Below, in pieces: positions 3,422 to 58,540 of a stretch of 64,000 bases of DNA. The position numbers were made by a program, and so were the translations under genes. The notes under the pieces are model-generated. The model had not been told where the DNA came from and ran no database searches. It was given only the letters and a program-made list of their open reading frames with translations. The stretch's first letter is position 1, and each line of letters starts with the position of its first letter. Location: positions 1 to 64,000 of the forward strand of contig CANRIL010000003.1 in the NCBI GenBank assembly GCA_947630625.1, read 5' to 3'. The stretch is from an uncultured Clostridia bacterium (lineage in GTDB: Bacteria > Bacillota > Clostridia > Oscillospirales > CAG-272).

Positions 3422-4330
3422 TCACATACCTCCGATTATATCTTTTATATTTTTGATACCGTATTTGTCAAGCGCGTCCGGAAGCGCCGTGATGATGTCG
3501 CGGCACGCGTACGGGTCGCGCAGATTCGCCGCGCCGACGCCGACGGCGGTCGCCCCGGCAAGCATCATTTCGATAACGTCCTCCGCCGACGAGACGCCCC
3601 CCATCCCGACGATGGGCAGCTTCACCGCGTGCGACACCTGATAGACGCACCGAAGCGCCACTGGGAAGACGGCGGGACCCGAAAGCCCGCCCATAACGTT
3701 GGCGATCACGGGCTTTTTCCGGCGCAGATCGAACCGCATGCCGAGCAGCGTGTTGATCAGGGAAATTCCGTCCGCGCCCGCGTCCTCGGCAGCGCGCGCG
3801 ATCTCGGCAATGTCGGTCACGTTCGGCGACAGTTTCACGATCACGGGCTTTTTCGTCACCGCGCGGACGGCGCGGACGACCTCGCCCGTCGCGCGGCAGT
3901 CGGACCCCGTGACGGCGCCGCCCGCGTGAACGTTCGGGCAGCTTATGTTGATCTCGAACCAGCCGATGCAAGAGAGCGGATCGAGAAGTGAAACGGTGTA
4001 CGCGTATTCCGCGGCGGAAAACCCGCCGACGTTTGCCATCACGGGCTTGTGGAACACCTCCGCCATGCGCGGAAGCTCGCGCGCGATGACTTCATGGACG
4101 CCGGGATTTTGAAGTCCGACCGAATTTATCATACCGGCGGGACATTCGGCGATGCGCGGCTGCGGATTGCCGAAGCGCGGCTCCTTCGTCGTCCCCTTGA
4201 ACGAGAACGTCCCGAGAATGTTTATGTCGTAATACTCCGCGAACTCGTACCCGAATCCGAACGTCCCGGACGCCGGAATGATCGGATTGTCAAGTTCGAT
4301 CCCGCAAAGCTCAACGGTCAGTCGTCCCAT
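3422..4330 (-). CDS. pyrD: Dihydroorotate dehydrogenase, NAD-linked catalytic subunit (class 1B)
   Basis: This is the FMN subunit that oxidises dihydroorotate to orotate and passes electrons to PyrK. The INISCPNV segment carries the catalytic cysteine typical of class 1 enzymes, as opposed to the serine of membrane-bound class 2. A longer open frame exists upstream. I start at the ATG at 4330 because GGAGG lies seven bases before it and the family N-terminus begins with this hydrophobic strand. The gene overlaps the end of pyrK by 13 bases, which fits the PyrD-PyrK heterotetramer. The product is 302 residues. Confidence 0.96.
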   Translation of the reverse strand: MGRLTVELCGIELDNPIIPASGTFGFGYEFAEYYDINILGTFSFKGTTKEPRFGNPQPRIAECPAGMINSVGLQNPGVHEVIARELPRMAEVFHKPVMANVGGFSAAEYAYTVSLLDPLSCIGWFEINISCPNVHAGGAVTGSDCRATGEVVRAVRAVTKKPVIVKLSPNVTDIAEIARAAEDAGADGISLINTLLGMRFDLRRKKPVIANVMGGLSGPAVFPVALRCVYQVSHAVKLPIVGMGGVSSAEDVIEMMLAGATAVGVGAANLRDPYACRDIITALPDALDKYGIKNIKDIIGGM

Positions 4331-5064
4331 ACGATCTCCTCCTTTTCGAGAACGGGGCCGTCGCGGCAGACGCGCTTTGAACCGCCGACGGTTTTGACGC
4401 TGCACCCGAGGCACGCGCCGAAGCCGCACCCCATCCGCGCCTCAAAGCTGTATTCTCCCCCCGTCGCGGCGCGACCATAGACCGCCTTCATCATCGGGGT
4501 CGGCCCGCACGAATACGTGAACGTGTAGCCGCCCGCCTCAGGCATCGCGTCCGTCACAAATCCGCGGACGCCGGCGCTGCCGTCAACCGTCGCCACGGCG
4601 ACGGAGACGCCGAGCGAGGTGAGTTCATCCGCCCCGAAAACATCATCCGCCGAAGCGAAGCCGAGAACGGCGCTGACGCGCCTGCCCTCGCCGAGCAGCT
4701 TTTTCGCGAGCATATAAAGCGGAGCCGTGCCGAGCCCGCCGCCGAGCAGAAGCGGACGTTCGCCCGACTTTGACGTGTCGAACCCGTTTCCGAGCCCGGA
4801 GAGAACGTCGAGTTTGGTCCCCGCCGTCATGCGCGACATGTCATCAGTCCCCGCGCCGACGACCTTATAAACGATGGACAGCCACCCGCCGTCCGCGTCA
4901 ACGTCGTGAACGGATATCGGCCGGCGCAGGTAACGCCCCGGAAGCGCGATATTTATAAACATCCCCGGAGCCGTAAGCATGGAGACATCGCCGCAGAGCC
5001 GCATTTTATAAACGTCCCGCGCGATCCTCTCATTCTCAGCCACGGTATAAATAGTCTCGACCAT
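4318..5064 (-). CDS. pyrK: Dihydroorotate dehydrogenase electron transfer subunit
   Basis: PyrK is an FAD and 2Fe-2S protein that carries electrons from PyrD to NAD+. The 248-residue protein has an N-terminal ferredoxin-reductase-like beta barrel with the FAD-binding RYLRRPIS motif. A nucleotide-binding segment LLLGGGLGTAPL follows. A C-terminal cysteine cluster CGFGACLGC, with a further cysteine about 12 residues later, holds the iron-sulfur centre. It overlaps pyrD. A 430-base stretch of repeats separates it from carB, so translation of pyrK is probably independent of carB. Confidence 0.95.
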   Translation of the reverse strand: MVETIYTVAENERIARDVYKMRLCGDVSMLTAPGMFINIALPGRYLRRPISVHDVDADGGWLSIVYKVVGAGTDDMSRMTAGTKLDVLSGLGNGFDTSKSGERPLLLGGGLGTAPLYMLAKKLLGEGRRVSAVLGFASADDVFGADELTSLGVSVAVATVDGSAGVRGFVTDAMPEAGGYTFTYSCGPTPMMKAVYGRAATGGEYSFEARMGCGFGACLGCSVKTVGGSKRVCRDGPVLEKEEIVWDD

Positions 5065-5091: not shown

Positions 5092-5490
5092 CACAAAGAA
5101 ATCAGAAAAGTTTTAGAGGGGCATCGGGGAACCTTTTCCCAAAAGGTTCTCCGATCGGGGCTCCGGGGCAGCGCCCCGAATCTGCGCCTCACGGTGTCCG
5201 CGCGAAGCGCGGCTGCCTCCCGGCACATAAACGCCCAGCACACTCACGCCGCCGCAGACCAAAGAGCCATAAAGAGTTTTAGAGGGGTATCGGGGAACCT
5301 TTTCCCAAAAGGTTCCTCCGATCGGGGCTCCGGGGCAGCGCCCCGACCCCGCGCCTCACGGTGTCCGTGCGAAGCGCGGCTACCTCCCGGCACACAAGCC
5401 CCCGGCGCACCCTCGCCGCCGCAGACCAGAAATGTCATAAAGAGTTTTGGGGGTTCTTAGGGGGGATTTTCCCAAAATCCCCCCTAAGTA
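5092..5490. repeat. Two-and-a-bit copies of a dispersed ~180-bp hairpin repeat between carB and pyrK
   Basis: Two imperfect units of about 180 bases start near 5105 and 5274, and a partial third starts near 5447. Each has, on the plus strand, a long AT-containing hairpin (ggaacctttt paired with aaaaggttcc, or a different paired sequence in the third), then a GGGGCAGCGCCCC hairpin, then a conserved block reading ctcacggtgtccg. The same family recurs at 17235-17905 inside the arg operon. No gene is supported in this interval: the short open frames come from the repeat and differ between copies. Confidence 0.85.
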
Positions 5491-5496
5491 AAAACC

Positions 5497-8400
5497 TCAC
5501 TCCGCATCAATCGTGGAGATCGTCAGTGTGGTTTCCTCGAGAACGTCGAGCAGGACGCGGACGGTGTCGAGGGAGGTAAAGATGGTGACATTATTTTCGG
5601 TAGCGCAGCGGCGGATGGCGATGCCGTCATCGAGATGGACGCCGGAGACGATGGAGCGCGTGTTTATGACGTAGCTCACGTAGCCGGAGCGGATCGAATC
5701 GAGAATTTCGGTGCTGCCTTCGGAGATCTTGCCGCGGACTCTGGTGCGGATGCCGTGCGACTTGAGGAATGCGGCGGTACCCGCCGTCGCCTCGATGTTG
5801 AAGCCCATGTCGTAGAAGCGCCTCACGAGCGGCAGCGCCTCTTCCTTGTCCTCGTCGGCGAGCGTCACGAGGACGGTGCCGTAATTCTGGAGCGTCATGC
5901 CGGAGGCGATCATCGCCTTGTACATCGCGCGGTGCAGCTTTTTGTCGTACCCGATCGTCTCACCCGTCGACTTCATTTCGGGCGAAAGATACGCGTCAAG
6001 CCCCTTTATCTTGTTGAACGAGAAGACCGGAACCTTCACGTAGTACCGATCCTTTTCCGGCGGATAAAGATCGAATATGCCGAGCTCCTTGAGCGACTTG
6101 CCGAGAATTACCTCCGTCGCAATGTCCGCAAGACTGTACCCCGTCGACTTCGACAGGAACGGTACCGTGCGCGACGAACGCGGATTAACCTCGATTATGT
6201 AAACCTTATCATTTTTGTCAACGATAAACTGAATGTTGTATATGCCAACTATGCCGATGCCGAGCCCAAGCTTTTTCGCGTATGTCAGAATAGTCCCCTT
6301 CACGCGGTCGGAAACGCTGAACGTCGGATAAACGGAGATAGAGTCGCCCGAATGAACGCCCGTCCGCTCGACAAGCTCCATGATGCCCGGAACAAATACG
6401 TCCCGCCCGTCGCAGATCGCGTCAACTTCGAGCTCGCGCCCCTTGATGTACTTGTCAACGAGAACGGGCTTGTCAACGTCGATCTCGACCGCCGTCTTGA
6501 GATAGTGCCGCAGGGATTCCTCCGTCGCAACGATCTGCATCGCACGACCGCCGAGAACGAAGCTCGGACGGACAAGAACCGGATACCCGATCTCGTTCGC
6601 CGCGCGAACGCCGTCCTCGATGTTCGTCACCGCCGTCCCCTTCGGCTGGGGAATGCCGAGCTTGTATAAAACGTGCTCGAACGCGTCACGGTTCTCGGCG
6701 CGCTCGATCGCGTCACAGTCTGTGCCGATTATCTTTACACCGCGCGACGCAAGCGGCGCCGCAAGATTGATCGCCGTCTGCCCGCCGAGAGACGCAATTA
6801 CGCCGTCCGGCGACTCAAAATCGATTATCGCCATCACATCCTCCGGCGTCAGCGGCTCAAAATACAGCTTGTCGCCGGTCGTGTAATCGGTGGATACCGT
6901 CTCGGGGTTGTTGTTTATTATGATCGCCTCGTAACCCGCGCGCTTGATGGTCTGGACCGCGTGAACGGTCGAATAGTCAAATTCGACGCCCTGCCCGATC
7001 CTGATGGGACCCGCGCCGAGAACGACGATCTTCGGCTTGTTCGTCAGGCGGGATTCGTTTTCGCCCGTGTAGGACGAATAGAGGTAGGCGATGTATTTGC
7101 CCGTGTGGAGCGTGTCCACCATGCGGAATATGGGAACAATGCCGTGCTCGCGGCGCGTCTTGTATATTTCGACCTCCGGTGTCGCCCAGAGCTTTGCGAT
7201 GAACGCGTCCGAAAAGCCGAGCTTTTTTGATTCGGCGAGAACGCCGATGTCGCCGCGGGAGGCGGCGAGACGCGATTCCATGTCGACAATTTTTTTGATC
7301 GAGTCGAGGAACAGCTCCGTTATCATCGTCTTGCGGTGAAGCTCCGAAACGGATACGCCGCGCCGTAAAAGCTCGGTGACGGCAAAGATGTTGTCGTCGC
7401 GGAACTCGGAGATGTATTCCATTATATCGTCCGTCGCCATATCGTCAAATTTAGGGAGATGGAGATGGCAGACGCCCGTTTCGAGCGAGCGGACGGACTT
7501 GAGGAAGCATTCCTCGAGCGTCGAGCCGATGCCCATGACCTCGCCCGTCGCCTTCATCTGAGTGCCGAGCGTGTTCGGCGCTTCCGCGAATTTGTCAAAC
7601 GGGAAGCGCGGGAACTTCGCCACAATGTAGTCGAGCGACGGCTCGATCGCCGCCGTCCCGCCGGCAACGGGGATGTCTTCGAGCGCCATGCCGAGCGCGA
7701 TCTTCGCGGTCACGCGGGCGATCGGATAGCCGCTCGCCTTGGAGGCAAGCGCCGACGAACGCGACACGCGCGGGTTGACCTCGATCAGGAAATATTCGCT
7801 CGTCTCCGGGTGAAGCGCAAACTGAACGTTGCAGCCGCCGTGGATCTTCAGCTCGCGGATTATCTTGATGGCGGAATCGTTGAGCATTTTCAGATCGTGA
7901 TCGTTCAGGGAGAGGATCGGCGCGACAACTATGGAGTCGCCGGTGTGAACGCCGACGGGGTCAACGTTTTCCATGCCGCAGATCGTGATGCAGTGATCGT
8001 TCGAGTCGCGCATGACCTCAAATTCGATCTCCTTGTACCCCTTGACCGACTTCTCAACGAGCACCTGATGAACGGGCGAGAGCCGGAACGCGTTCGTCGC
8101 GATGTCGACGAGCTCCGCCTCGTCGTTTGCAAAGCCGCCGCCCGTGCCGCCGAGCGTGAACGCCGGACGGAGAACGACCGGATAGCCGATGTCGAGCGCG
8201 GCGCGCTTCGCCTCCTCGACGCTGTACGTGATCTCCGACGGGATTACAGGCTCGCCGATGGACTCGCACATCTCCTTGAAGAGCTCACGGTCCTCCGCAC
8301 GCTCGATAGACTCGCGCGGCGTGCCAAGAAGTTCAACGCCGCATTCCTTGAGGACGCCCTTCTTATCGAGCTGGACGGCGAGATTGAGCCCCGTCTGCCC

Positions 8401-8673
8401 GCCGATGCCGGGAACGATCGCGTCCGGACGCTCGTAGCGCAGGATGCGCGCCACAAATTCGAGCGTCAGCGGCTCCATGTATACCTTGTCCGCGATCGTC
8501 GTGTCCGTCATAATCGTCGCCGGATTGGAATTTACAAGGATAACCTCATAACCTTCTTCCTTAAGCGCGAGGCACGCCTGCGTCCCCGCGTAATCAAATT
8601 CTGCCGCCTGCCCGATGACGATAGGTCCCGAGCCGATGATAAGCACCTTTTTGATGTCCGTTCGCTTTGCCAT
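5497..8673 (-). CDS. carB: Carbamoyl-phosphate synthase large subunit
   Basis: CarB makes carbamoyl phosphate from bicarbonate, ATP and glutamine-derived ammonia, feeding both PyrB and ArgF. The 1058-residue protein contains the two homologous ATP-grasp halves (starting KKVLIIGSGP and PKIVVLGAGP) and ends in an MGS-like allosteric domain. The length is complete for the family, which is usually near 1070. A ribosome binding site AAGGAGA lies upstream of the ATG. It follows pyrC by 34 bases. The glutaminase subunit gene carA, which normally precedes carB, is not in this operon or window and must lie elsewhere if the enzyme uses glutamine. Confidence 0.97.
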   Translation of the reverse strand: MAKRTDIKKVLIIGSGPIVIGQAAEFDYAGTQACLALKEEGYEVILVNSNPATIMTDTTIADKVYMEPLTLEFVARILRYERPDAIVPGIGGQTGLNLAVQLDKKGVLKECGVELLGTPRESIERAEDRELFKEMCESIGEPVIPSEITYSVEEAKRAALDIGYPVVLRPAFTLGGTGGGFANDEAELVDIATNAFRLSPVHQVLVEKSVKGYKEIEFEVMRDSNDHCITICGMENVDPVGVHTGDSIVVAPILSLNDHDLKMLNDSAIKIIRELKIHGGCNVQFALHPETSEYFLIEVNPRVSRSSALASKASGYPIARVTAKIALGMALEDIPVAGGTAAIEPSLDYIVAKFPRFPFDKFAEAPNTLGTQMKATGEVMGIGSTLEECFLKSVRSLETGVCHLHLPKFDDMATDDIMEYISEFRDDNIFAVTELLRRGVSVSELHRKTMITELFLDSIKKIVDMESRLAASRGDIGVLAESKKLGFSDAFIAKLWATPEVEIYKTRREHGIVPIFRMVDTLHTGKYIAYLYSSYTGENESRLTNKPKIVVLGAGPIRIGQGVEFDYSTVHAVQTIKRAGYEAIIINNNPETVSTDYTTGDKLYFEPLTPEDVMAIIDFESPDGVIASLGGQTAINLAAPLASRGVKIIGTDCDAIERAENRDAFEHVLYKLGIPQPKGTAVTNIEDGVRAANEIGYPVLVRPSFVLGGRAMQIVATEESLRHYLKTAVEIDVDKPVLVDKYIKGRELEVDAICDGRDVFVPGIMELVERTGVHSGDSISVYPTFSVSDRVKGTILTYAKKLGLGIGIVGIYNIQFIVDKNDKVYIIEVNPRSSRTVPFLSKSTGYSLADIATEVILGKSLKELGIFDLYPPEKDRYYVKVPVFSFNKIKGLDAYLSPEMKSTGETIGYDKKLHRAMYKAMIASGMTLQNYGTVLVTLADEDKEEALPLVRRFYDMGFNIEATAGTAAFLKSHGIRTRVRGKISEGSTEILDSIRSGYVSYVINTRSIVSGVHLDDGIAIRRCATENNVTIFTSLDTVRVLLDVLEETTLTISTIDAE

Positions 8674-12663: not shown

Positions 12664-12984
12664 TCAGTTCAGTTCCTCCATATACTTTGCCTGCTGGTCG
12701 ACCGGAATCATCAGCGCGTCCATTGCCTGCTTTGCGGTCAGATTCAGTGTCCTCATAAGCTGTCTGATATTTTTGATACGCTCTTTTTCCTCGCCCTGTG
12801 CAAGTCCCTGTTCGCGTCCCTGCGCAAGTCCCTGTTCGCGCCCCTGCGCAAGTCCCTGTTCGCGCCCCTGCGCAAGTCCCTGCTCGCGTCCTTGCGCGAG
12901 TCCCTGCTCGCGCCCCTGTTCAAGTCCCTGCGCAAGACCGATCGCTATGCCTTCTTTTCTCGTTTCCTCAAACGCTCTGCACAT
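12664..12984 (-). CDS. Predicted internal product of the rpn gene (RpnS-like, in frame)
   Basis: In-frame internal initiation at Met216 of the nuclease gene would give a 106-residue protein consisting of the octapeptide repeats and C-terminal helix only. The site is AAGGAG, eight bases, ATG, as good as any true start in this window. The same start context is preserved in both downstream copies. The known RpnL/RpnS pairs use the same logic, with the small form neutralising the nuclease. This entry is an inference from ribosome-binding-site geometry. Confidence 0.5.
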   Translation of the reverse strand: MCRAFEETRKEGIAIGLAQGLEQGREQGLAQGREQGLAQGREQGLAQGREQGLAQGREQGLAQGEEKERIKNIRQLMRTLNLTAKQAMDALMIPVDQQAKYMEELN

Positions 12985-13629
12985 GATCGCCACTCCTTCC
13001 TCATTTTCCTTATAATATCTCGTTGCATCCTTTATGACATCGAAATTCATGTCGTCCGGGTCGCAGCATGAAAAATCGTGCATCAGCTTACCGATGTCGG
13101 ATTCGTCCCTGTACGCGCCGTTCACATAGAGAATATGTTCCCCGTCGCCAAACGGCTCGTTCGTCACTAAATTCACGCGCTCGATCGGATAAAATGCCGC
13201 CCCGCGGCCGAACACATCATGCTCGGTTATAAATATCGTGTACGTGTCCGGCAGCTCGTCAAATTCCTGACCCGCGTCGAGATTCTCAATGTCCATCGCG
13301 CTCGAATGATATCTCGCACGGCGCGTCCCCGCGCCGTAGTCCGAACGCTGTATCTCAAGGTCGTACTTTCGCCCTTCCGAATCGTGACCGTACGCGTCAA
13401 GGCAGATCGAACGCGCACCGACGAGGCGCTTCATGTCCTTCTGCGTCTCAAGTCCCGTTATCACAAGGTCGTATTTGCCCGTTATGATGCGAAGCACAAA
13501 TTGAGCGAGCGGGATGTTGTCGCGGAATATGCACCTCATGAAGTCGTCGTCGATAGGGCGAAGCCCGCGCAGCCTCGCGAGGTCGTCCCTGCGTTCCCGT
13601 TCTTTTCGTTCAAGCTCACTTTCCCTCAT
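12664..13629 (-). CDS. Rpn family PD-(D/E)XK nuclease with octapeptide-repeat region
   Basis: This 321-residue protein belongs to the recombination-promoting nuclease / YhgA-like 'PD-(D/E)XK nuclease family transposase' group. The catalytic core is visible as Asp78 and the E-x-Q pair Glu92/Gln94 (LDAYG...YDLEIQ). Residues 216-240 lead into five 8-residue EQGLAQGR units, then a helical tail to residue 321. GGAGGGG precedes the ATG by seven bases, and its promoter is at 13674-13702. An internal AAGGAG lies exactly eight bases before Met216, predicting a second, small product. Relatives in E. coli are antiphage toxins controlled by such small products. The 'transposase' label is not supported here because no terminal repeats flank it. 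Confidence 0.88.
   Translation of the reverse strand: MRESELERKERERRDDLARLRGLRPIDDDFMRCIFRDNIPLAQFVLRIITGKYDLVITGLETQKDMKRLVGARSICLDAYGHDSEGRKYDLEIQRSDYGAGTRRARYHSSAMDIENLDAGQEFDELPDTYTIFITEHDVFGRGAAFYPIERVNLVTNEPFGDGEHILYVNGAYRDESDIGKLMHDFSCCDPDDMNFDVIKDATRYYKENEEGVAIMCRAFEETRKEGIAIGLAQGLEQGREQGLAQGREQGLAQGREQGLAQGREQGLAQGREQGLAQGEEKERIKNIRQLMRTLNLTAKQAMDALMIPVDQQAKYMEELN
12796..12937. repeat. 24-bp tandem repeats inside the rpn gene
   Basis: About five near-identical 24-base units encode the octapeptide EQGLAQGR. Copy 2 has about three units and copy 3 one. Because 24 is a multiple of three, gain or loss of units keeps the frame and changes only the length of the helical linker. Confidence 0.9.
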
Positions 13630-14871: not shown

Positions 14872-15109
14872 GCGCATTCGCAGTGAGCGGAAAACCGCTT
14901 GCCTATCAGCTTGCGCGCATCAACAAGTGAAAACCGATTTCACATCAGCCACGTACATCAACAAGCGAAAATCAATTTTTCTTCAACTCTCGCACATCAA
15001 CACGCAAAAACCGCTTTCCCATCAGCCACGGTGCATCAACACGCAAAAAAACGCTTTGACATCAGCCCCACACATCAACAAGCGAAAGCCGACCTCACAT
15101 CAACCCCGC
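14872..15109. repeat. 39-bp tandem repeat array between argD and argF
   Basis: Five consecutive units of exactly 39 bases occupy 14915-14953, 14954-14992, 14993-15031, 15032-15070 and 15071-15109. A looser 43-base unit precedes them from 14872. Each unit reads approximately catcaacaagcgaaaaccg followed by atttcacatcagcc. The units diverge from each other at roughly a quarter of positions, and there are no unique spacers, so it is not a CRISPR array. The array fills the gap between argD and argF, inside the operon. No gene is supported here. Confidence 0.9.
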
Positions 15110-16346: not shown

Positions 16347-17207
16347 TCACGCGTGAACGAGCGTGCCCGCGCCCTCGTCCGTCAGAAGCTCCATCAGAAT
16401 CGCATGCGGGACTCGTCCGTCGAGAATGACGACGTTTTTGATCCCGCGTTCCGCCGCGTCGACGCAGCACTCCACCTTCGGTATCATGCCGCCGGCGATG
16501 ATCCCCTGCTCAATAAGCTCGCGCGCCTCGCCGACGGTAAGAGCGGGGATCAGCGAATTTTGGTCACCGCAGTCGCGGAGGATGCCGGGAGTATCCGTCA
16601 TCATGATGAGACTTTCAGCGCCGAGCGCGGCCGCGATGCGCGCCGCCGCCGTGTCGCCGTTGACGTTGTACGTGTGCCCACTCTTGTCGCAGCCGACCGT
16701 CGAGATGACCGGGATATATCCCCGATCGAGCAGGTCGGTGACAATGCCTTCGTTTATGCGCTCGATCTTTCCGACAAAACCGAGCCTCTCATCCCTGACG
16801 CTCGCCTCGATCAGCCCGCCGTCCATACCGGAAATTCCGACGGCTGTGCCGCCGAGCGTGCCGAGCATGTTGACGAGCGTCTTGTTCACCTTGCCGGCGA
16901 GCACCATTTCAACGATATCCATCGTTTCCGCGTCCGTAACGCGCAGACCGTCAACGAACGCGGGCACCTTGCCGAGCTTTTTCATCAGTTCGTTGATCTC
17001 AGGCCCGCCGCCGTGAACGAGCACGATCCTGACGCCTATCAGATGAAGGAGAACGATGTCCTCCATCACGTGATGCTTCAGCTCCTCGTTCACCATCGCG
17101 CCGCCGCCGTACTTGACGACAACGACCTTGCCCGCGTACCGCCTTATATATTGCAGCGCCTGCGTCAGCACCTCCGCGCGCTGCGCGTTCGGAATGATGT
17201 TCTCCAT
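16347..17207 (-). CDS. argB: Acetylglutamate kinase
   Basis: ArgB phosphorylates N-acetylglutamate. The 286-residue amino-acid-kinase protein has the glycine-rich VVVKYGGGAM and LVHGGGPEI loops and the nucleotide site near the C-terminus. It also carries the extra N-terminal helix (AEVLTQALQYIRRY) seen in arginine-inhibited hexameric enzymes, so feedback inhibition by arginine is expected. That fits the recycling pathway implied by argJ. GGGGAG precedes the ATG. It lies between argD and about 700 bases of repeats. Confidence 0.95.
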   Translation of the reverse strand: MENIIPNAQRAEVLTQALQYIRRYAGKVVVVKYGGGAMVNEELKHHVMEDIVLLHLIGVRIVLVHGGGPEINELMKKLGKVPAFVDGLRVTDAETMDIVEMVLAGKVNKTLVNMLGTLGGTAVGISGMDGGLIEASVRDERLGFVGKIERINEGIVTDLLDRGYIPVISTVGCDKSGHTYNVNGDTAAARIAAALGAESLIMMTDTPGILRDCGDQNSLIPALTVGEARELIEQGIIAGGMIPKVECCVDAAERGIKNVVILDGRVPHAILMELLTDEGAGTLVHA

Positions 17208-17234
17208 CGTTCTCCCCTTTTTGATCGGTCTATT

Positions 17235-17905
17235 TTTAACTCAAGGAAACTTTTGGGAAAAGTTTCCTTGAGAATCCTTCAAAACTTTTTAATATGGGTA
17301 AATTTGTCCACGCGCAAATCAAGCCCCAGAGCGCGCCCGGCCTCACGGTGTCCGTGCGAAGCGCGGCTACCTCCCGGCGCACGAGCGCAAGAAAATCCTC
17401 AATCGCCCCCGCCAAGAAGCCCTCTCCATGAGAAGTTTTGGCAGATTCTTAAGGTACCTTTTCCAAAAGGTACCTTAAGCAGGGCGCGGGGCAGCGCCCC
17501 GGAACAACCTCTCTCGCAAATCAACCCCCAGAGCGCGCCCGGCCTCACGGTGTCCGTGCGAAGCGCGGCTGCCTCCCGGCGCACGAGCGCAAGAAAATCC
17601 GCAGCCGCACCCGCCAAGGAACCCCTCCATAAGAAGTTTTGGGGATTCTTAAGGTACCTTTTCCAAAAGGTACCTTAAGCAGGGCACGGGGCGGAGCCCC
17701 GAATAAACTCTTGCGCAAATCAAGCCCCAGAGCGCCCGGCCTCACGGTGTCCGTGCGAAGCGCGGCTACCTCCCGGCGCACTGGCGCAAGAAAATCCATA
17801 AACGCCCCCGCCAAGAAGCCCCTCCATAAAAAGTTTTGGCGGATTCTTAAGGTACCTTTTCCAAAAGGTACCTTAAGCGGGGCACGGGGCAGAGCCCCGA
17901 ATAAA
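17235..17905. repeat. Three-plus copies of the ~180-bp hairpin repeat between argJ and argB
   Basis: Units begin near 17430, 17630 and 17830, with a diverged partial unit near 17240. Each has a long hairpin (aaggtaccttttcc paired with ggtacctt, or gaaactttt with aaaagtttc), a GGGGC...GCCCC hairpin, and a conserved block containing ggtgtccgtgcgaagcgcgg. The hairpin arms differ from the pyr-operon copies at 5092-5490 yet stay paired. The 700-base interval otherwise holds no gene. Confidence 0.88.
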
Positions 17906-17907
17906 AC

Positions 17908-19122
17908 TCAAGTCCTGTAATCGGCGTTGATCTTCACGTAGTCGTAGGTGAGGTCGCAGCCCCAGGCGGAGGCGGAGGCGGGGCCGTCTTTGAGGGTGAC
18001 GTTGATGATGATGTCGTGCTCGGTGAGGACGGTTTTGGCCGTTTCCTCCGAAAAATCGAGGCTGAAGCCGTCGCGGGCGACCTCGATCTCACCGGCGGCG
18101 GACGAAAACGAAACGCCCATTTTGGTGACATCAACATCGGCTCCGCTGTAGCCGACGGCGCAGAAAACGCGGCCGAAATTGGCGTCTGCGCCGAAGATCA
18201 TAGCCTTCACGAGAGACGAGCAAACAACGGATTTCGCGGCGATCCGCGCCGCACGAAGGTCGCGCGCGCCGGAAACGCGGCATTCTATCATGCGCGTGCA
18301 CCCTTCGCCGTCACCGGCGATCGCGCGGCAGAGCGCGACCGTCACGGTGTTGAGCGCACGCATAAATTCGGTGAAGTCACTGCCTTCGGCGACAACGGGC
18401 TCGTTGCCGGCAGCGCCGTTTGCAAGAACGACAACCATGTCGTTCGTCGAGGTGTCACCGTCGATAGAGAGCATGTTGAACGTAGAGGCAACGTCGTGCG
18501 ACAGCGCGGCGCGAAGCATTTCCGGAGAAATCGCGGCGTCCGTCGTGATGAAAACGAGCATCGTCGCCATGTTCGGATGGATCATCCCGCTCCCCTTCGC
18601 AATGCCGCCGATGCGGCACGTCTTCCCGCCGAGAATAAATTCGACCGCCACCTCTTTTTTTGCGGTGTCCGTCGTCATGATGCCCTCGGCGGCCTCGCCA
18701 CTGCCGTCACGCGAGAGAGAGGACGCAAGCTGAGGGATCCCAGCCGCGATCGGCGCGATGTCGAGCGGCTTGCCGATAACGCCCGTCGACGCAACAACAA
18801 CGTCTCCGGCGTCGATCCCCAGCGCATTTGCCGTCAGCTCGCAAGTAAGATTCGCGATCTCAATGCCGTTCTCGCTGCACGTGTTCGCGTTCCCGCTGTT
18901 GCAGATGACGGCGCGCGCATGACCGTTTTCGAGATGAGATTTAGTCACCGCAATGGGCGCGCCTTTTACGAGATTCTGCGTGTAAACAGCCGCCGCAGAC
19001 GCTTCCCTGTCGCTGTAGATCAAAGACAGATCGCGCTTTGACTTGTTTCTCCTGATACCGCAGTGAACTCCCGCCGCGGTGAACCCCTCGGCGGCACAGA
19101 CGCCGCCAGAAATAAGCTTCAT
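17908..19122 (-). CDS. argJ: Glutamate N-acetyltransferase / ornithine acetyltransferase
   Basis: ArgJ moves the acetyl group from acetylornithine to glutamate, closing the cyclic arginine pathway; some members also use acetyl-CoA. The 404-residue precursor contains the self-cleavage site HPNMA/TML. Thr187 becomes the nucleophile of the beta chain. AGGAGA precedes the ATG by nine bases. It lies 16 bases after argC. The mono- or bifunctional nature cannot be decided from sequence alone, but no argA is seen in this operon. Confidence 0.95.
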   Translation of the reverse strand: MKLISGGVCAAEGFTAAGVHCGIRRNKSKRDLSLIYSDREASAAAVYTQNLVKGAPIAVTKSHLENGHARAVICNSGNANTCSENGIEIANLTCELTANALGIDAGDVVVASTGVIGKPLDIAPIAAGIPQLASSLSRDGSGEAAEGIMTTDTAKKEVAVEFILGGKTCRIGGIAKGSGMIHPNMATMLVFITTDAAISPEMLRAALSHDVASTFNMLSIDGDTSTNDMVVVLANGAAGNEPVVAEGSDFTEFMRALNTVTVALCRAIAGDGEGCTRMIECRVSGARDLRAARIAAKSVVCSSLVKAMIFGADANFGRVFCAVGYSGADVDVTKMGVSFSSAAGEIEVARDGFSLDFSEETAKTVLTEHDIIINVTLKDGPASASAWGCDLTYDYVKINADYRT

Positions 19123-29429: not shown

Positions 29430-29965
29430 TTTGCGCCCCGCCGCCGATTCCCGTACGCCCCCGTCTCCCGCAGCGCCATATTATCTCCGCTTTTCCTCCG
29501 CCGCGCCTCCCACGCCATCGCGCTTTCCTTACCCACCGCGCCATATCGTCCCCGCTTTTCTCCTGCCGCCCTCTCGATCCAACCTCCGCCTTCGCCCCAA
29601 AACCTTCCACCGCCTCCGCCCCGCGTTTCCGCACCCGCCGCTCCCTCGCTTTCGCCCTTTCCTTGCCACGCCGCCCCTCTCGCCCTCGCCCTTTCCTCTC
29701 CGCCGCGCCTCCCGCGCCTTCGCGCTTTCCTTGCCGCGCCGCCCCGCTCGCCCTCGCCCTTTTCTCGCCGCCGCACCTCCGCGCTTTCCTTAACACGCCG
29801 CCCCGCTCGCCCTCGCCCTTTTCTCGCCGCCGCGCCTCCCGCGCTTCCGCCCTTACTTCCCCAGCCGCCCTCTCCCGCCTTTGTCCCGCGTTTCCACTCC
29901 CGCCGCTCTTTTCGCCGCCCCCTTCAATTTTCCCGCCGCCCAACCCCCATCCCCCCGTCAACGGG
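29430..29965. repeat. 535-base pyrimidine-rich island
   Basis: The plus strand is almost entirely C and T with scattered G, built from variants of cgccgccccgctcgccctcg and ctttccttgccgcg. Two near-identical units of about 60 bases lie around 29740 and 29800. Open frames on both strands are composition artefacts. It separates two divergent promoters. Confidence 0.8.
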
Positions 29966-38014: not shown

Positions 38015-39970
38015 ATGATTACAAAAACTGACACGTCACTCCGTTTGAATTTCGGTCACGAAAATTTGCTGCTCGAAGCGTGGGGCGGCGGAATACGCGT
38101 CCGCGCCGTGCCTATCGGCGAATTTCCCGACAACGACTGGGCGCTGACCGAACATAACGCGCCCGAAAACGTCTCGATCTCGGCGGGCGGCGACGGCGGC
38201 GTATATATCGAATGCGGCGGCGTCCGGTGCGAGGTGCACGGCGAAAAGCTCCGCTTCACCTCCGGCGGCAGGCTGCTCTTCGAGGAAGCGTCCGATCCGT
38301 GGTCGCTGCGGCTGCGCGCGCGCCGTTATAAGACGCACGCGGGCGGGGACACGTTCGGCGCCGTCATCCGCTTTTCCGCTTATGACGGCGAAGTCCTGCA
38401 CGGCATGGGACAATACCGCGATGCGCGCCATGACCTCAAGGGAATGACGCTTGAGCTCGCGCAAAGAAATTCCCAGATCACCGTTCCCTTCCTGATCTCC
38501 TCGCGCGGCTACGGCTTTTTATGGAACAACCCCGCGATCGGCAGCGCGACATTTGCCGAAAACGTCACCGAATGGCGCGCGGAAGCGACGCGCGCGGTCG
38601 ATTATTGGGTCTGCGCCGCGGACACACCGGCGGAGATAATCAAAAAATATGCGGACGCAGTAGGTCACGCCTCGCCCCTGCCCGAATCGCTTTACGGGCT
38701 CTGGCAGTGTAAGCTCCGTTACCGTACGCAGGAAGAACTTCTCAATGTCGCGCGCGAATATCACCGCCGCGGCATCAAGCTCGATGTCATAGTCGTCGAC
38801 TTTTTCCACTGGATATATCAGGGCGACTGGGATTTTGACCCCGAATACTGGCCTGACCCCAAGGCGATGGTCGACGGGCTGCGCGAAATGGGCACACGGC
38901 TGATGGTGTCCGTCTGGCCGACCGTCGACCCGCGCTCAAAAAATTATCACGGCTTCGCCTCAAACGGCTATCTCATCAGGACAGAACGCGGGATGCCCGC
39001 CGTCATGGACTTCAACGGGCAGGTCGGAATTTACGACGCGACGAATCCGTCAGCGCGCAAATTTGCCTACGGCGTGCTGAAGCAGAATTACGGCAAATAC
39101 GGCATCGACATGTTCTGGCTCGACGAAGCGGAACCCGAATATTCATACACCGATTACGACCATTACAGGCACTACATCGGCTCCTCGCTAGAGGTCGGGA
39201 ACATATACCCGCGCATGCACTCAATGATGGTGTACGACGGACAGCGTGCCGACGGCGTGCCGGATATACTGAATCTCGTGCGCTGCGCGTGGGTCGGCAG
39301 CCCGAAATACGGCGCGCTCGTCTGGAGCGGCGACATCGAATCGTCGTTCCGCGAAATGAAGGTGCAGCTCAGAAACGCGCTCAACATGGGCGCCGCCGGG
39401 ATACCGTGGTGGATCTCGGACACGGGCGGATTTTACGGCGGCAACGTCAACGATCCCGTCTTCCGTGAACTGCTCGTGCGCTGGTTCCAGTGGGCGGTGT
39501 TCTCGCCGATACTCAGGATGCACGGCGACAGGCAGCCGAATATCGGCGCGCTCGCGTACAATACGGACCGTGGCGGCGGCTTCTGCTCGTCCGGCGCTCC
39601 GAACGAGATCTGGAGCTATGGGGACGAGGTCTACGAAATATTGAAGTCGTACGTTTCGCTCCGCGAATCTATGAAGCCGTACATCAAAAAGACCGCCGAC
39701 GAGGCGGTTGCGGCGGGGCTGCCGATGATGCGCGCGCTTTATCTCGAATTCCCCGACGATGAGCTCTGCTGGCAGCTCGACGATGAATACATGTTCGGCA
39801 GCGATTATCTTGTCGCCCCCGTCACCGAATACGGCGCGCGCACGCGCCGCGTCTACCTGCCGCGCGGCAAATGGCGCGAGACAAGCGGCGGCGAAGTCAT
39901 AACGAGCGCCGGCGAATACGTCACCGTCCCCGCGCCGCTCGATCATATGCCCTGCTTTGAACGGGTGTAA
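38015..39970 (+). CDS. Glycoside hydrolase family 31 (alpha-xylosidase/alpha-glucosidase type)
   Basis: The 651-residue protein has the GH31 layout: an N-terminal beta domain, a TIM barrel with the nucleophile near Asp370 (DMFWLDEAEPE), a probable acid/base near Asp440 (VWSGDIESSF) and a C-terminal beta domain. It lacks a signal peptide, so it should act on imported oligosaccharides. The neighbouring xylanase and arabinofuranosidase genes make alpha-xylosidase activity on hemicellulose fragments plausible. I start at the ATG at 38015, nine bases after AAGGG; earlier ATGs are badly spaced. The 3' end of the gene is repeated downstream. Confidence 0.9.
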   Translation: MITKTDTSLRLNFGHENLLLEAWGGGIRVRAVPIGEFPDNDWALTEHNAPENVSISAGGDGGVYIECGGVRCEVHGEKLRFTSGGRLLFEEASDPWSLRLRARRYKTHAGGDTFGAVIRFSAYDGEVLHGMGQYRDARHDLKGMTLELAQRNSQITVPFLISSRGYGFLWNNPAIGSATFAENVTEWRAEATRAVDYWVCAADTPAEIIKKYADAVGHASPLPESLYGLWQCKLRYRTQEELLNVAREYHRRGIKLDVIVVDFFHWIYQGDWDFDPEYWPDPKAMVDGLREMGTRLMVSVWPTVDPRSKNYHGFASNGYLIRTERGMPAVMDFNGQVGIYDATNPSARKFAYGVLKQNYGKYGIDMFWLDEAEPEYSYTDYDHYRHYIGSSLEVGNIYPRMHSMMVYDGQRADGVPDILNLVRCAWVGSPKYGALVWSGDIESSFREMKVQLRNALNMGAAGIPWWISDTGGFYGGNVNDPVFRELLVRWFQWAVFSPILRMHGDRQPNIGALAYNTDRGGGFCSSGAPNEIWSYGDEVYEILKSYVSLRESMKPYIKKTADEAVAAGLPMMRALYLEFPDDELCWQLDDEYMFGSDYLVAPVTEYGARTRRVYLPRGKWRETSGGEVITSAGEYVTVPAPLDHMPCFERV

Positions 39971-40250
39971 GCGCGGTCGGATACGTCATCGTCCCCACCC
40001 TGCTCGATCTGAACGTGGGTAAGCGCATCCATATATAAGCGCGGGCGAATCCCCGCTCCGCTCGATCAAAACGGGTGTAAGCACGGGCGGGTACGTCACC
40101 GCTCCCGCTCCGCTCAATCAGAACGGGTGTGAACGCATCCATATATAAGCGCGGGCGAATCCCCGCTCCGCTCGATCAAAACGGGTATAAGCGCGGACAT
40201 ATATAAGCGCGGGCGGATACGCCCCCGCACCGCTCGACCATATCCTTATC
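39960..40250. repeat. Degenerate tandem copies of the GH31 gene 3' end
   Basis: Downstream of the stop codon about five units of 50-58 bases echo the last codons of the gene. Each has a form of tacgtcaccgtccccgcgcc, then gctcgatc, and ends in acgggtgtaa or a variant. A block of about 54 bases containing catccatatataagcgcggg occurs twice almost exactly (near 40027 and 40136). There is no open frame. It looks like repeated tail duplication followed by drift. Confidence 0.8.
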
Positions 40251-57003: not shown

Positions 57004-57054
57004 AAAAAAATTTGCCCGCATCGGAGCGGCTTTCCCTGCCCCCGACGCGGGCGT
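57004..57054 (-). terminator. Terminator downstream of the C39 peptidase gene
   Basis: GCCCGCGTCGG pairs with CCGATGCGGGC and is followed by AAATTTTTTT on the minus strand. It lies after the duplicated gene tail. Confidence 0.65.
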
Positions 57055-57205
57055 TTATTTTATTATCTTTCTCCGATGTTTCCGTCCGGCAGTACCACGA
57101 CCGCCTGCATATTGAGCGAATTATACGCGAGAACGGACTCGTCGATCGAACAGCGCACGTCCCGAACGGCAAGGCTTTCCCTGCCTCCGATGCGGGCGCT
57201 TATTT
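57028..57205. repeat. Duplicated 3' end of the C39 peptidase gene
   Basis: A segment of about 145 bases containing the last 26 or so codons, the stop codon and the following bases of the peptidase gene is repeated directly downstream. The extra copy still reads SIDESVLAYNSLNMQ...LPDGNIGER and a stop, with only a few changes from the genuine end. It has no start codon or ribosome binding site of its own. Confidence 0.9.
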
Positions 57206-58540
57206 TTATCTTCCGCCGATATTGCCGTCCGGCAGTACCACGACCGCCTGCATATTGAGCGAATTATACGCGAGAACGGACTCGTCGATCGAATAGCGCA
57301 CGATCCCGTTTGAGCCGTAGGGGTCGGCGAAAATGTAGCCGTCGCTGTCGTAGCCGCAGAACACCATGCAGTGCTCGTTTGCGGGATACATGAAGCTTTC
57401 GCTCCCGTCCGTCGACTGCCAGAGGATTATTTTGTCGATCTCCTTCATCCCGACGGTCGCCCACACCGCGACAGGTATGCCGCGGTCGATATATTCCTTC
57501 TTAAGCTGTTCAAGCGACATTCCGGAGACGTTTTTGGCGTGATATTCCTCGTCCGCGAGGAATTTGTTCAGCGCGCGGACGATAACGGGCGCAAAGCACC
57601 CGTAACCCGCGTTCTCGGAGCGCGGGTCGCCCGCGTAAACGAGCTTCGGATTCGGTCCGTACCTGCACCCCCACTTGATCGAAACGGGCTCGCACTCAAG
57701 ATAGTCGTCGACGAACTCCTCCGGCGCAATGTCAAATCCGAAATAGCGCAAAAGCATCGTCGCCGAGACGGATTCACACCCGTTCGGCAGAATTCCCTCC
57801 TGCGAAATATACGGCACGCCGAGCAGCGCGTTTTTCTTTTTCGCCGTCGACTCAAACGTAAGCTCGTGCCGACACAGAAGGTCGTGTTTGAACGCCCCCT
57901 CCACAAGCCTGTCCGACGCGGGGCAGACGCCGTATGAAGTGTATGTGCTGCGCGCGTAATCGAAGAACGATTCGAGCCGCGCGACAATATTTTCAAGGTC
58001 GAACGTCTCACTATATTCCTTTCGGGAATAGCCGTCCGGCGCTTCATAATCGCCGATATCGACATACTCAGCGCTCTCATATTCCATTGCGACGCCGTTT
58101 GCAGGCTCGCCCCAGACCTCGACCGTGCCGTCGTCCCTGTAATAGTCATAGACAACGTAAAACCACCGCATCATGTCTTTCGCGAACTGATCCCGCGCCG
58201 TCATGTCAACCGAAACGACGCCGTCCTCGTGAAAGGTCAGATACTTCATCGGCACCTTGAAGTCGTCAAGCTCGCCGACGGCACGGAAAAGCTGATCGAC
58301 CGCGTATATCACGGGGTCGATTTGCGCGTCCGCGCCATCGTTGTCGTAATTGCCGTTCGGATTGAGGATATAGTTATTGTCGACGAGGATGCTCTTTATG
58401 AAAAGATTGTTGCGGTTCAGCTTGGCGATCACAAAAAGCGACGATGCAAGCGCGGCAAGCAGACCGCATAATATTGTCACTATGACCGCGATAAGTATCG
58501 CGCGCCGTCTTTTAGTCCTGTCCCTGTTCTTATCAAACAT
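57206..58540 (-). CDS. C39-like peptidase, membrane-anchored
   Basis: The 444-residue protein has one N-terminal membrane helix (about residues 13-35) and a large external part. Its C-terminal half is a C39-type cysteine peptidase domain with the catalytic cysteine in LPNGCESVSATMLLRYFG and a later histidine in NEHCMVFCGYD and aspartate in FADPYGS. It lacks an ABC transporter fusion, so it is a stand-alone surface protease or amidase rather than a bacteriocin processor. Only AAGGA very close to the ATG precedes it. Its 3' end is duplicated downstream. Confidence 0.87.
   Translation of the reverse strand: MFDKNRDRTKRRRAILIAVIVTILCGLLAALASSLFVIAKLNRNNLFIKSILVDNNYILNPNGNYDNDGADAQIDPVIYAVDQLFRAVGELDDFKVPMKYLTFHEDGVVSVDMTARDQFAKDMMRWFYVVYDYYRDDGTVEVWGEPANGVAMEYESAEYVDIGDYEAPDGYSRKEYSETFDLENIVARLESFFDYARSTYTSYGVCPASDRLVEGAFKHDLLCRHELTFESTAKKKNALLGVPYISQEGILPNGCESVSATMLLRYFGFDIAPEEFVDDYLECEPVSIKWGCRYGPNPKLVYAGDPRSENAGYGCFAPVIVRALNKFLADEEYHAKNVSGMSLEQLKKEYIDRGIPVAVWATVGMKEIDKIILWQSTDGSESFMYPANEHCMVFCGYDSDGYIFADPYGSNGIVRYSIDESVLAYNSLNMQAVVVLPDGNIGGR

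Follow-up and report, generated by a model that had tools for sequence, protein, structure and literature searches.

Between argJ and argB, the arginine operon of an uncultured Clostridia bacterium (GTDB lineage Oscillospirales, CAG-272) carries a gap of 703 nt. What kind of element fills this gap, and does it matter to the genes on either side? The sequence analyzed, referred to below as the window, comprises positions 1 to 64,000 of contig CANRIL010000003.1 (assembly GCA_947630625.1). The operon lies on the minus strand, and the gap is filled by three direct repeats of ~200 nt with an identity of ~91% (17313-17511, 17515-17710 and 17714-17905), for which TRF returned a period of 202, 3.0 copies, 90% matches and a score of 972. 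Each of the three units contains a perfect palindrome of 15 bp. Relative to dinucleotide shuffles, RNA folding gave z values of about -5 for single units and of -8.9 for the entire gap; thus, the structure of this region is far beyond chance.

The units share a core element of ~72 nt, hereafter E, whose consensus was derived from aligned copies in related genomes and is described by covariance model R1. In operon sense, E consists of a GGGGC-NNN-GCCCC hairpin, the linker NGCCCCG, a palindrome of 14-17 bp (for example, CTTAAGGGGCTTTTT-GA-AAAAAGCCCCTTAAG) and a tail, AATCC-N-CAAAAACTTT. The features of the argJ-argB junction and of a second array in the carB-pyrK gap are listed below; argJ, argB, carB and pyrK-like identities were checked against NCBIfam.

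4318..5064, minus strand: pyrK-like dihydroorotate dehydrogenase electron-transfer subunit, downstream of the second array (NF000799, 207 bits, below the equivalog cut-off)
5107..5180, minus strand: core element E, carB-pyrK gap (R1, 66.1 bits)
5273..5347, minus strand: core element E, carB-pyrK gap (R1, 66.4 bits)
5440..5494, minus strand: half-element (palindrome and tail), first copy of the pyrimidine-operon array, directly after the carB stop codon (R1, 36.5 bits)
5497..8673, minus strand: carB, upstream of the second array (TIGR01369, 1380 bits)
16347..17207, minus strand: argB, downstream of the array (TIGR00761, 268 bits)
17219..17288, plus strand: inverted half-element adjoining argB, with the palindrome at 17240-17272 and AAAAGTTTTGAAGG (R1, 43.2 bits)
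17313..17905, minus strand: tandem array of three ~200-nt repeats (repeat comparison, TRF)
17341..17378, plus strand: module X, 38 nt, in the array spacer (further copies at 17543-17580, 17740-17777, 5187-5224 and 5354-5391)
17432..17503, minus strand: core element E, unit 3 (R1, 85.9 bits)
17632..17703, minus strand: core element E, unit 2 (R1, 88.5 bits)
17830..17901, minus strand: core element E, unit 1, with GC hairpin, 15-bp palindrome and CAAAACTTTTT tail (covariance model R1, 93.1 bits)
17908..19122, minus strand: argJ, upstream of the array in transcription (TIGR00120, 451 bits)

The gene names argJ and argB given in the original prediction are right (TIGR00120 and TIGR00761); carB is likewise confirmed (TIGR01369), and the gene downstream of it is pyrK-like (NF000799). 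It was also correct that the argJ-argB units and the array at 5 kb (5107-5494) are oriented alike with respect to operon transcription; all lie on the minus strand. Where three units and a partial one had been described between argJ and argB, there are indeed three tandem units, while the partial copy is an inverted half-element that has a palindrome and a tail, a different stem (CTCAAGGAAACTTTT) and no GC hairpin. Three further species of the genus (G004, G005 and G009) also have this half-element conserved upstream of argB. The head of the half-element and the unit 1 tail (AATCC..AAAACTTTTTAT) are complementary, and the two are paired in the predicted fold, closing off the array. Unit 1 itself starts 6 nt past the argJ stop codon.

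The carB-pyrK array is made of two full E cores and the half-element directly behind the carB stop. The core and module X (five copies) are common to both arrays, and the stem sequences differ; an exact-pattern scan of the genome collection found no module X outside the window. Strong full copies of E in the window's own genome number only five, all of them in these two arrays; weaker ones also occur. On contig C40 of this genome, two sense and three antisense half-elements with an X-like module form an array between a gpsA-like gene and the next gene. An Rfam search of the window at gathering and relaxed thresholds returned nothing relevant; at gathering, only RNase P and one tRNA were reported. 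Among 32 window genes with room for a hairpin behind the stop codon, one starting within 30 nt was seen only for carB, argJ and one gene with an ordinary terminator-like hairpin, which rules out stop-proximal hairpins as a trait of all window genes.

The window's genome is rich in tandem-expanded spacers. About five copies of a ~39-nt repeat (CATCAACAAGCGAAAACCGATT-like) occupy the argD-argF gap of the arg operon (14890-15104), and more tandem repeats of 58-143 nt, mostly intergenic, are located at 29641-29854, 39960-40215 and 57028-57308. The reading frame at 12664-13629 shows a weak likeness, below cut-off, to Rpn-type recombination-promoting nucleases and has internal 12/24-nt repeats (CCCTGCGCAAGT).

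In an alignment of 24 sequences, the structure of E pairs 93% of cells, with 60 double-sided changes in the stem versus 15.6 in shuffles, and only five cells are G-U. Both arms of the stem are thus shown to change together by Watson-Crick rules. The rarity of G-U pairs suggests that pairing is upheld at the DNA level, or by copying of one arm from the other, more than through RNA selection alone.

Distribution of the element and its position behind stop codons

Matches to R1 were found in 68 of 116 related genomes, representing 55 of 96 genera, with at least 40 matches per genome in several relatives, where the search scored no more than 42 candidates per genome. In sister species G006 and G009, a finer search returned 87 and 78 matches at an E-value of 0.01, of which many were weak or read the same palindrome from the opposite strand. 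At the G080 loci (L259-L278), a species-specific module, AAACTAAATCGCTAAT..GCAGCGCGGGAGCCCATATCCCGCGC, comes after most of the E copies, which makes these composite elements.

Gene neighbors of 102 elements from five genome groups were identified by a simple codon model rather than by full annotation, and collapsing arrays and sister-species duplicates left 70 independent sites. The upstream gene was on the same strand at 53 of these and antisense at 17. E started within 8 nt of the upstream stop codon at 29 of the 53 sites and within 15 nt at 33, with a median distance of 7 nt; at the 3' end of E, a facing stop lay no more than 15 nt away in just 1 of 31 cases. Between co-directional genes, E was in sense orientation at 34 of 46 sites and antisense at 12 (p = 0.0016). 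Convergent sites numbered 19 and divergent ones 5, and convergent gene pairs often carried one E each. Random orientation and position, which the original prediction had named as contrary to it, were therefore not seen.

E occurs singly, as inverted pairs (L239, L249 and L255) and as arrays (the window, L292, L293 and L294). The bracket formed by a sense copy at the stop codon and an inverted copy before the next start is also present at gyrB-gyrA in G004 and G005 and in the C40 array. E is often found within core operons, at junctions such as gyrB-gyrA, ftsW-murG and carB-pyrK; priA-def and metG-gpsA are further hosts. Gene names at these junctions were read from protein sequences and family-searched only for carB and pyrK. 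Given this wide range of flanking genes, to which the gpsA-like gene can be added, the proposed link to carbamoyl phosphate looks like a coincidence and we reject it.

A literature search that covered few subscription journals found no description of palindromic repeats in these Clostridia. The closest resemblance is to REP and BIME sequences of enterobacteria, characterized in PMC12306157 as extragenic palindromes that are single, in inverted pairs or in tandem arrays, that also lie inside operons and that frequently come no farther than 15 nt from a stop codon. E likewise is an interspersed extragenic palindrome with many copies per genome (few strong ones in the window's own genome), occurs single, in inverted pairs and in tandem clusters, and shares the translation-linked position within 15 nt of a stop. 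It differs from REP/BIME in its unrelated sequence, longer stems, variable arms, the conserved GC hairpin in front and the mirror tail behind, and it has neither the GTAG/CGTC tag nor, in this genus, a RAYT.

History of the insertion sites

Two sister species carry E at ftsW-murG; seven others of the genus lack it and have short gaps there. E at this junction is a discrete, clean insertion of ~70 nt between the stop codon and the ribosome-binding site. In the two species that carry it, the flanks are 95-97% identical and E only 68%, with both arms and the tail changed together, so E has been replaced in place. In the other nine of the ten pairs compared, E diverged by only 0-8%. A new hairpin lies upstream of gyrA in one sister species, and behind it the 3' arm of the previous hairpin has been left over. 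The in-place swaps and the leftover arm look like signs of template switching or conversion between copies.

The clean insertion at ftsW-murG and the many near-identical copies in some genomes are what one would expect of a non-autonomous transposon (MITE or REPIN) that depends on a transposase acting in trans, and REPINs of RAYT systems are likewise short palindromes that are amplified and exchanged within genomes. We nevertheless judge such an origin very unlikely. Flanking direct repeats at E were no longer than in a swapped-flank control; a GTAG/CGTC tag at the foot of the palindrome was looked for, and any such tetramer near the edge was found in 19 of 102 elements, below the chance estimate; and the Y1 (RAYT-type) transposase family PF01797, which mobilizes REPs and is present in some other relatives, is absent from all 11 genus genomes (G000-G010) and from the E-rich genomes G024 and G027. 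Since target duplications, tags and a Y1 transposase were all missing, neither a MITE nor a REPIN mechanism is supported. What remains of the idea of a mobile element is that copies are interspersed, cleanly inserted and swapped in place. They may spread by template switching during replication or by gene conversion among palindromes, without a dedicated transposase, and triplets or larger arrays may result from unequal exchange of E together with adjoining sequence. The anchoring of E at stop codons would be a Clostridial parallel to REP-based translational control without a RAYT transposase, one that separates what such repeats do from how they move.

The argJ-argB junction and a possible role of the element

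The argJ-argB gap is shorter than 60 nt in most relatives and 147-703 nt in seven of the eight genus genomes with a match. In G001, G004, G005 and G007, the gap contains an unrelated structured unit of 84-89 nt (model R2) with the apical loop CAAACAACG, present in 2-4 tandem copies; its first hairpin includes the argJ stop codon. The R2 arrays are as follows:

G004:C17:2073-2355 (L075)
G005:C25:4269-4511 (L078)
G007:C35:12162-12525 (L076)
G001:C52:11084-11271 (L077)

R2 was found nowhere else in the eleven genus genomes, and its unit is a candidate cis-regulatory RNA of the arg operon. In G003 (L081), the gap holds a third, unrelated A/T-rich tandem hairpin array, whose first stem again includes the argJ stop codon. 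The recurrence of one architecture with differing sequences at one junction suggests selection for a stop-anchored structured spacer between argJ and argB, but other intergenic tandem repeats also exist in the window's genome.

On balance, we slightly favor the interpretation that E is a REP/BIME-like extragenic palindromic repeat that resides mostly behind stop codons, that the argJ-argB array is a local tandem expansion of it, and that stop-proximal structure may tune the upstream gene and insulate the two halves of the operon. E. coli REPs closer than 16 nt to the stop have been reported to lower translation (Liang et al. 2015, as cited in PMC12306157). By analogy, a hairpin 0-15 nt behind the stop codon could meet the terminating ribosome and lower or time the output of the upstream gene; E might also shield the 3' end of the upstream mRNA. 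At argJ-argB, the predicted pairing of the unit 1 tail with the inverted half-element on the argB side would loop out the array and could hold argCJ and argBDF as separately tunable blocks of one transcript. Differential expression of the flanking genes, one of the roles originally proposed, is thus plausible and compatible with the anatomy of E.

Points against the favored interpretation are the 17 of 70 sites with an antisense upstream gene, the mere five strong copies in the window's own genome, all of them inside the window, and the lack of a footprint or of regulatory activity reported for a related E. coli triplex motif (PMC4666352). Stop proximity could also come about through a neutral insertion bias. 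E might be a selfish repeat without host function that lands where it is least harmful, just after stop codons, with tandem growth reflecting slippage at a palindrome that blocks replication. The template-switch dynamics seen in the in-place swaps and the leftover arm, the species-specific 3' modules and homogenized copies, the other, unrelated tandem repeats that crowd intergenic gaps of the window's genome, and the association of triplex motifs with instability in E. coli (PMC4666352) all agree with this. Yet neutral landing predicts both orientations, whereas sense is favored 34:12 between co-directional genes; starts of E are concentrated in the first 8 nt after the stop instead of being scattered over the gap; and the difference of only 0-8% in nine of ten sister-species comparisons also speaks against it. 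We therefore regard a purely selfish repeat as rather unlikely. That E is a transcription terminator or attenuator, reducing expression of the downstream part of the operon, is improbable. Strong hairpins behind stop codons and convergent gene pairs with one E each would suit such a role, but the palindrome, read in sense, has no U-tract behind it, a terminator scan of the operon strand found no terminator at E, and E precedes essential genes of the same direction, murG and gyrA among them. An intrinsic terminator is ruled out by the scan and the consensus, which has a GC stem with no following U-tract. A terminator-like alternative pairing, GCCCC-GCTTAA-GGGGC-TTTTT, is destroyed by stem variants (GGTACC, CCCC) that keep the palindrome.

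The mirror tail and a possible third strand

The tail of E mirrors the 3' arm of its palindrome. A-run lengths of the tail and the arm are correlated (Spearman 0.68), AAGAA arms go with tails that contain AAGAA, and GAAAA arms have mostly tails ending in AAAAG. The mean mirror score was 6.60 versus 5.89 +/- 0.10 for tails shuffled within genomes, a value reached in 0 of 2000 shuffles; among the control readings, direct and complement were also slightly elevated, and reverse complement was not. A second, independent set comprised 35 elements, the majority from genera new to the test; the mirror score again exceeded that of shuffles (4/5000), and direct and reverse-complement readings did not. 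Both tests are inflated by subfamily ancestry: the mirror covariation reflects in part a small number of subfamily-level events, so the shuffles overstate independence.

A mirror relation is impossible by Watson-Crick pairing and possible with a Hoogsteen third strand. The tail thus mirrors the arm as would a third strand in an intrastrand triplex, where the third segment mirrors one arm of a hairpin. In the stem of E, GGGGCTTTTT/AAAAAGCCCC, purines alternate between the strands and no single uninterrupted homopurine strand exists; E accordingly lacks the single-strand homopurine triads of ITxF classes I-IV (PMC4666352). Under established triplex rules, every triad would be permitted provided that the third strand swapped its partner strand at the C/G step, giving an alternate-strand triplex.

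TM_ECO/BoxC of E. coli offers the nearest comparison: like E, it is an intergenic palindrome with a third segment mirroring one arm, it forms inverted pairs, and a link to instability has been reported for TM_ECO (PMC4666352). Unlike TM_ECO, E has a purine strand that switches within the stem (a G-run in one arm, an A-run in the other), a hypervariable stem and three-part covariation; E is also strand-biased and anchored at stop codons, whereas TM_ECO has no strand bias and no distance trend (PMC4666352). For the E. coli motif, neither a footprint in vivo nor activity as a promoter or terminator was seen (PMC4666352).

As a tentative extension, and one we consider possible but doubtful, E may be a selected triple-helix element: anchored at the stop codon, with stem and third strand coevolving by Watson-Crick and Hoogsteen rules, it would form an alternate-strand triplex on the template strand or the transcript at gene ends across a large group of gut Clostridia. 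At operon junctions such as argJ-argB, it would determine how much upstream product is made relative to downstream product. We found no earlier evidence for selection on the third strand of natural triplex-forming repeats in bacteria, and three-part covariation across genera provides a comparative test of it.

In a separate locus of the window's genome (L295, G000:C40, 2060-2320), two half-elements in inverted orientation lie 188 nt apart near a tRNA-like sequence; they carry a mirror third strand of 16 nt (TTTTTGAAGAGGGGG / GGGGGAGGGACTTTTT).
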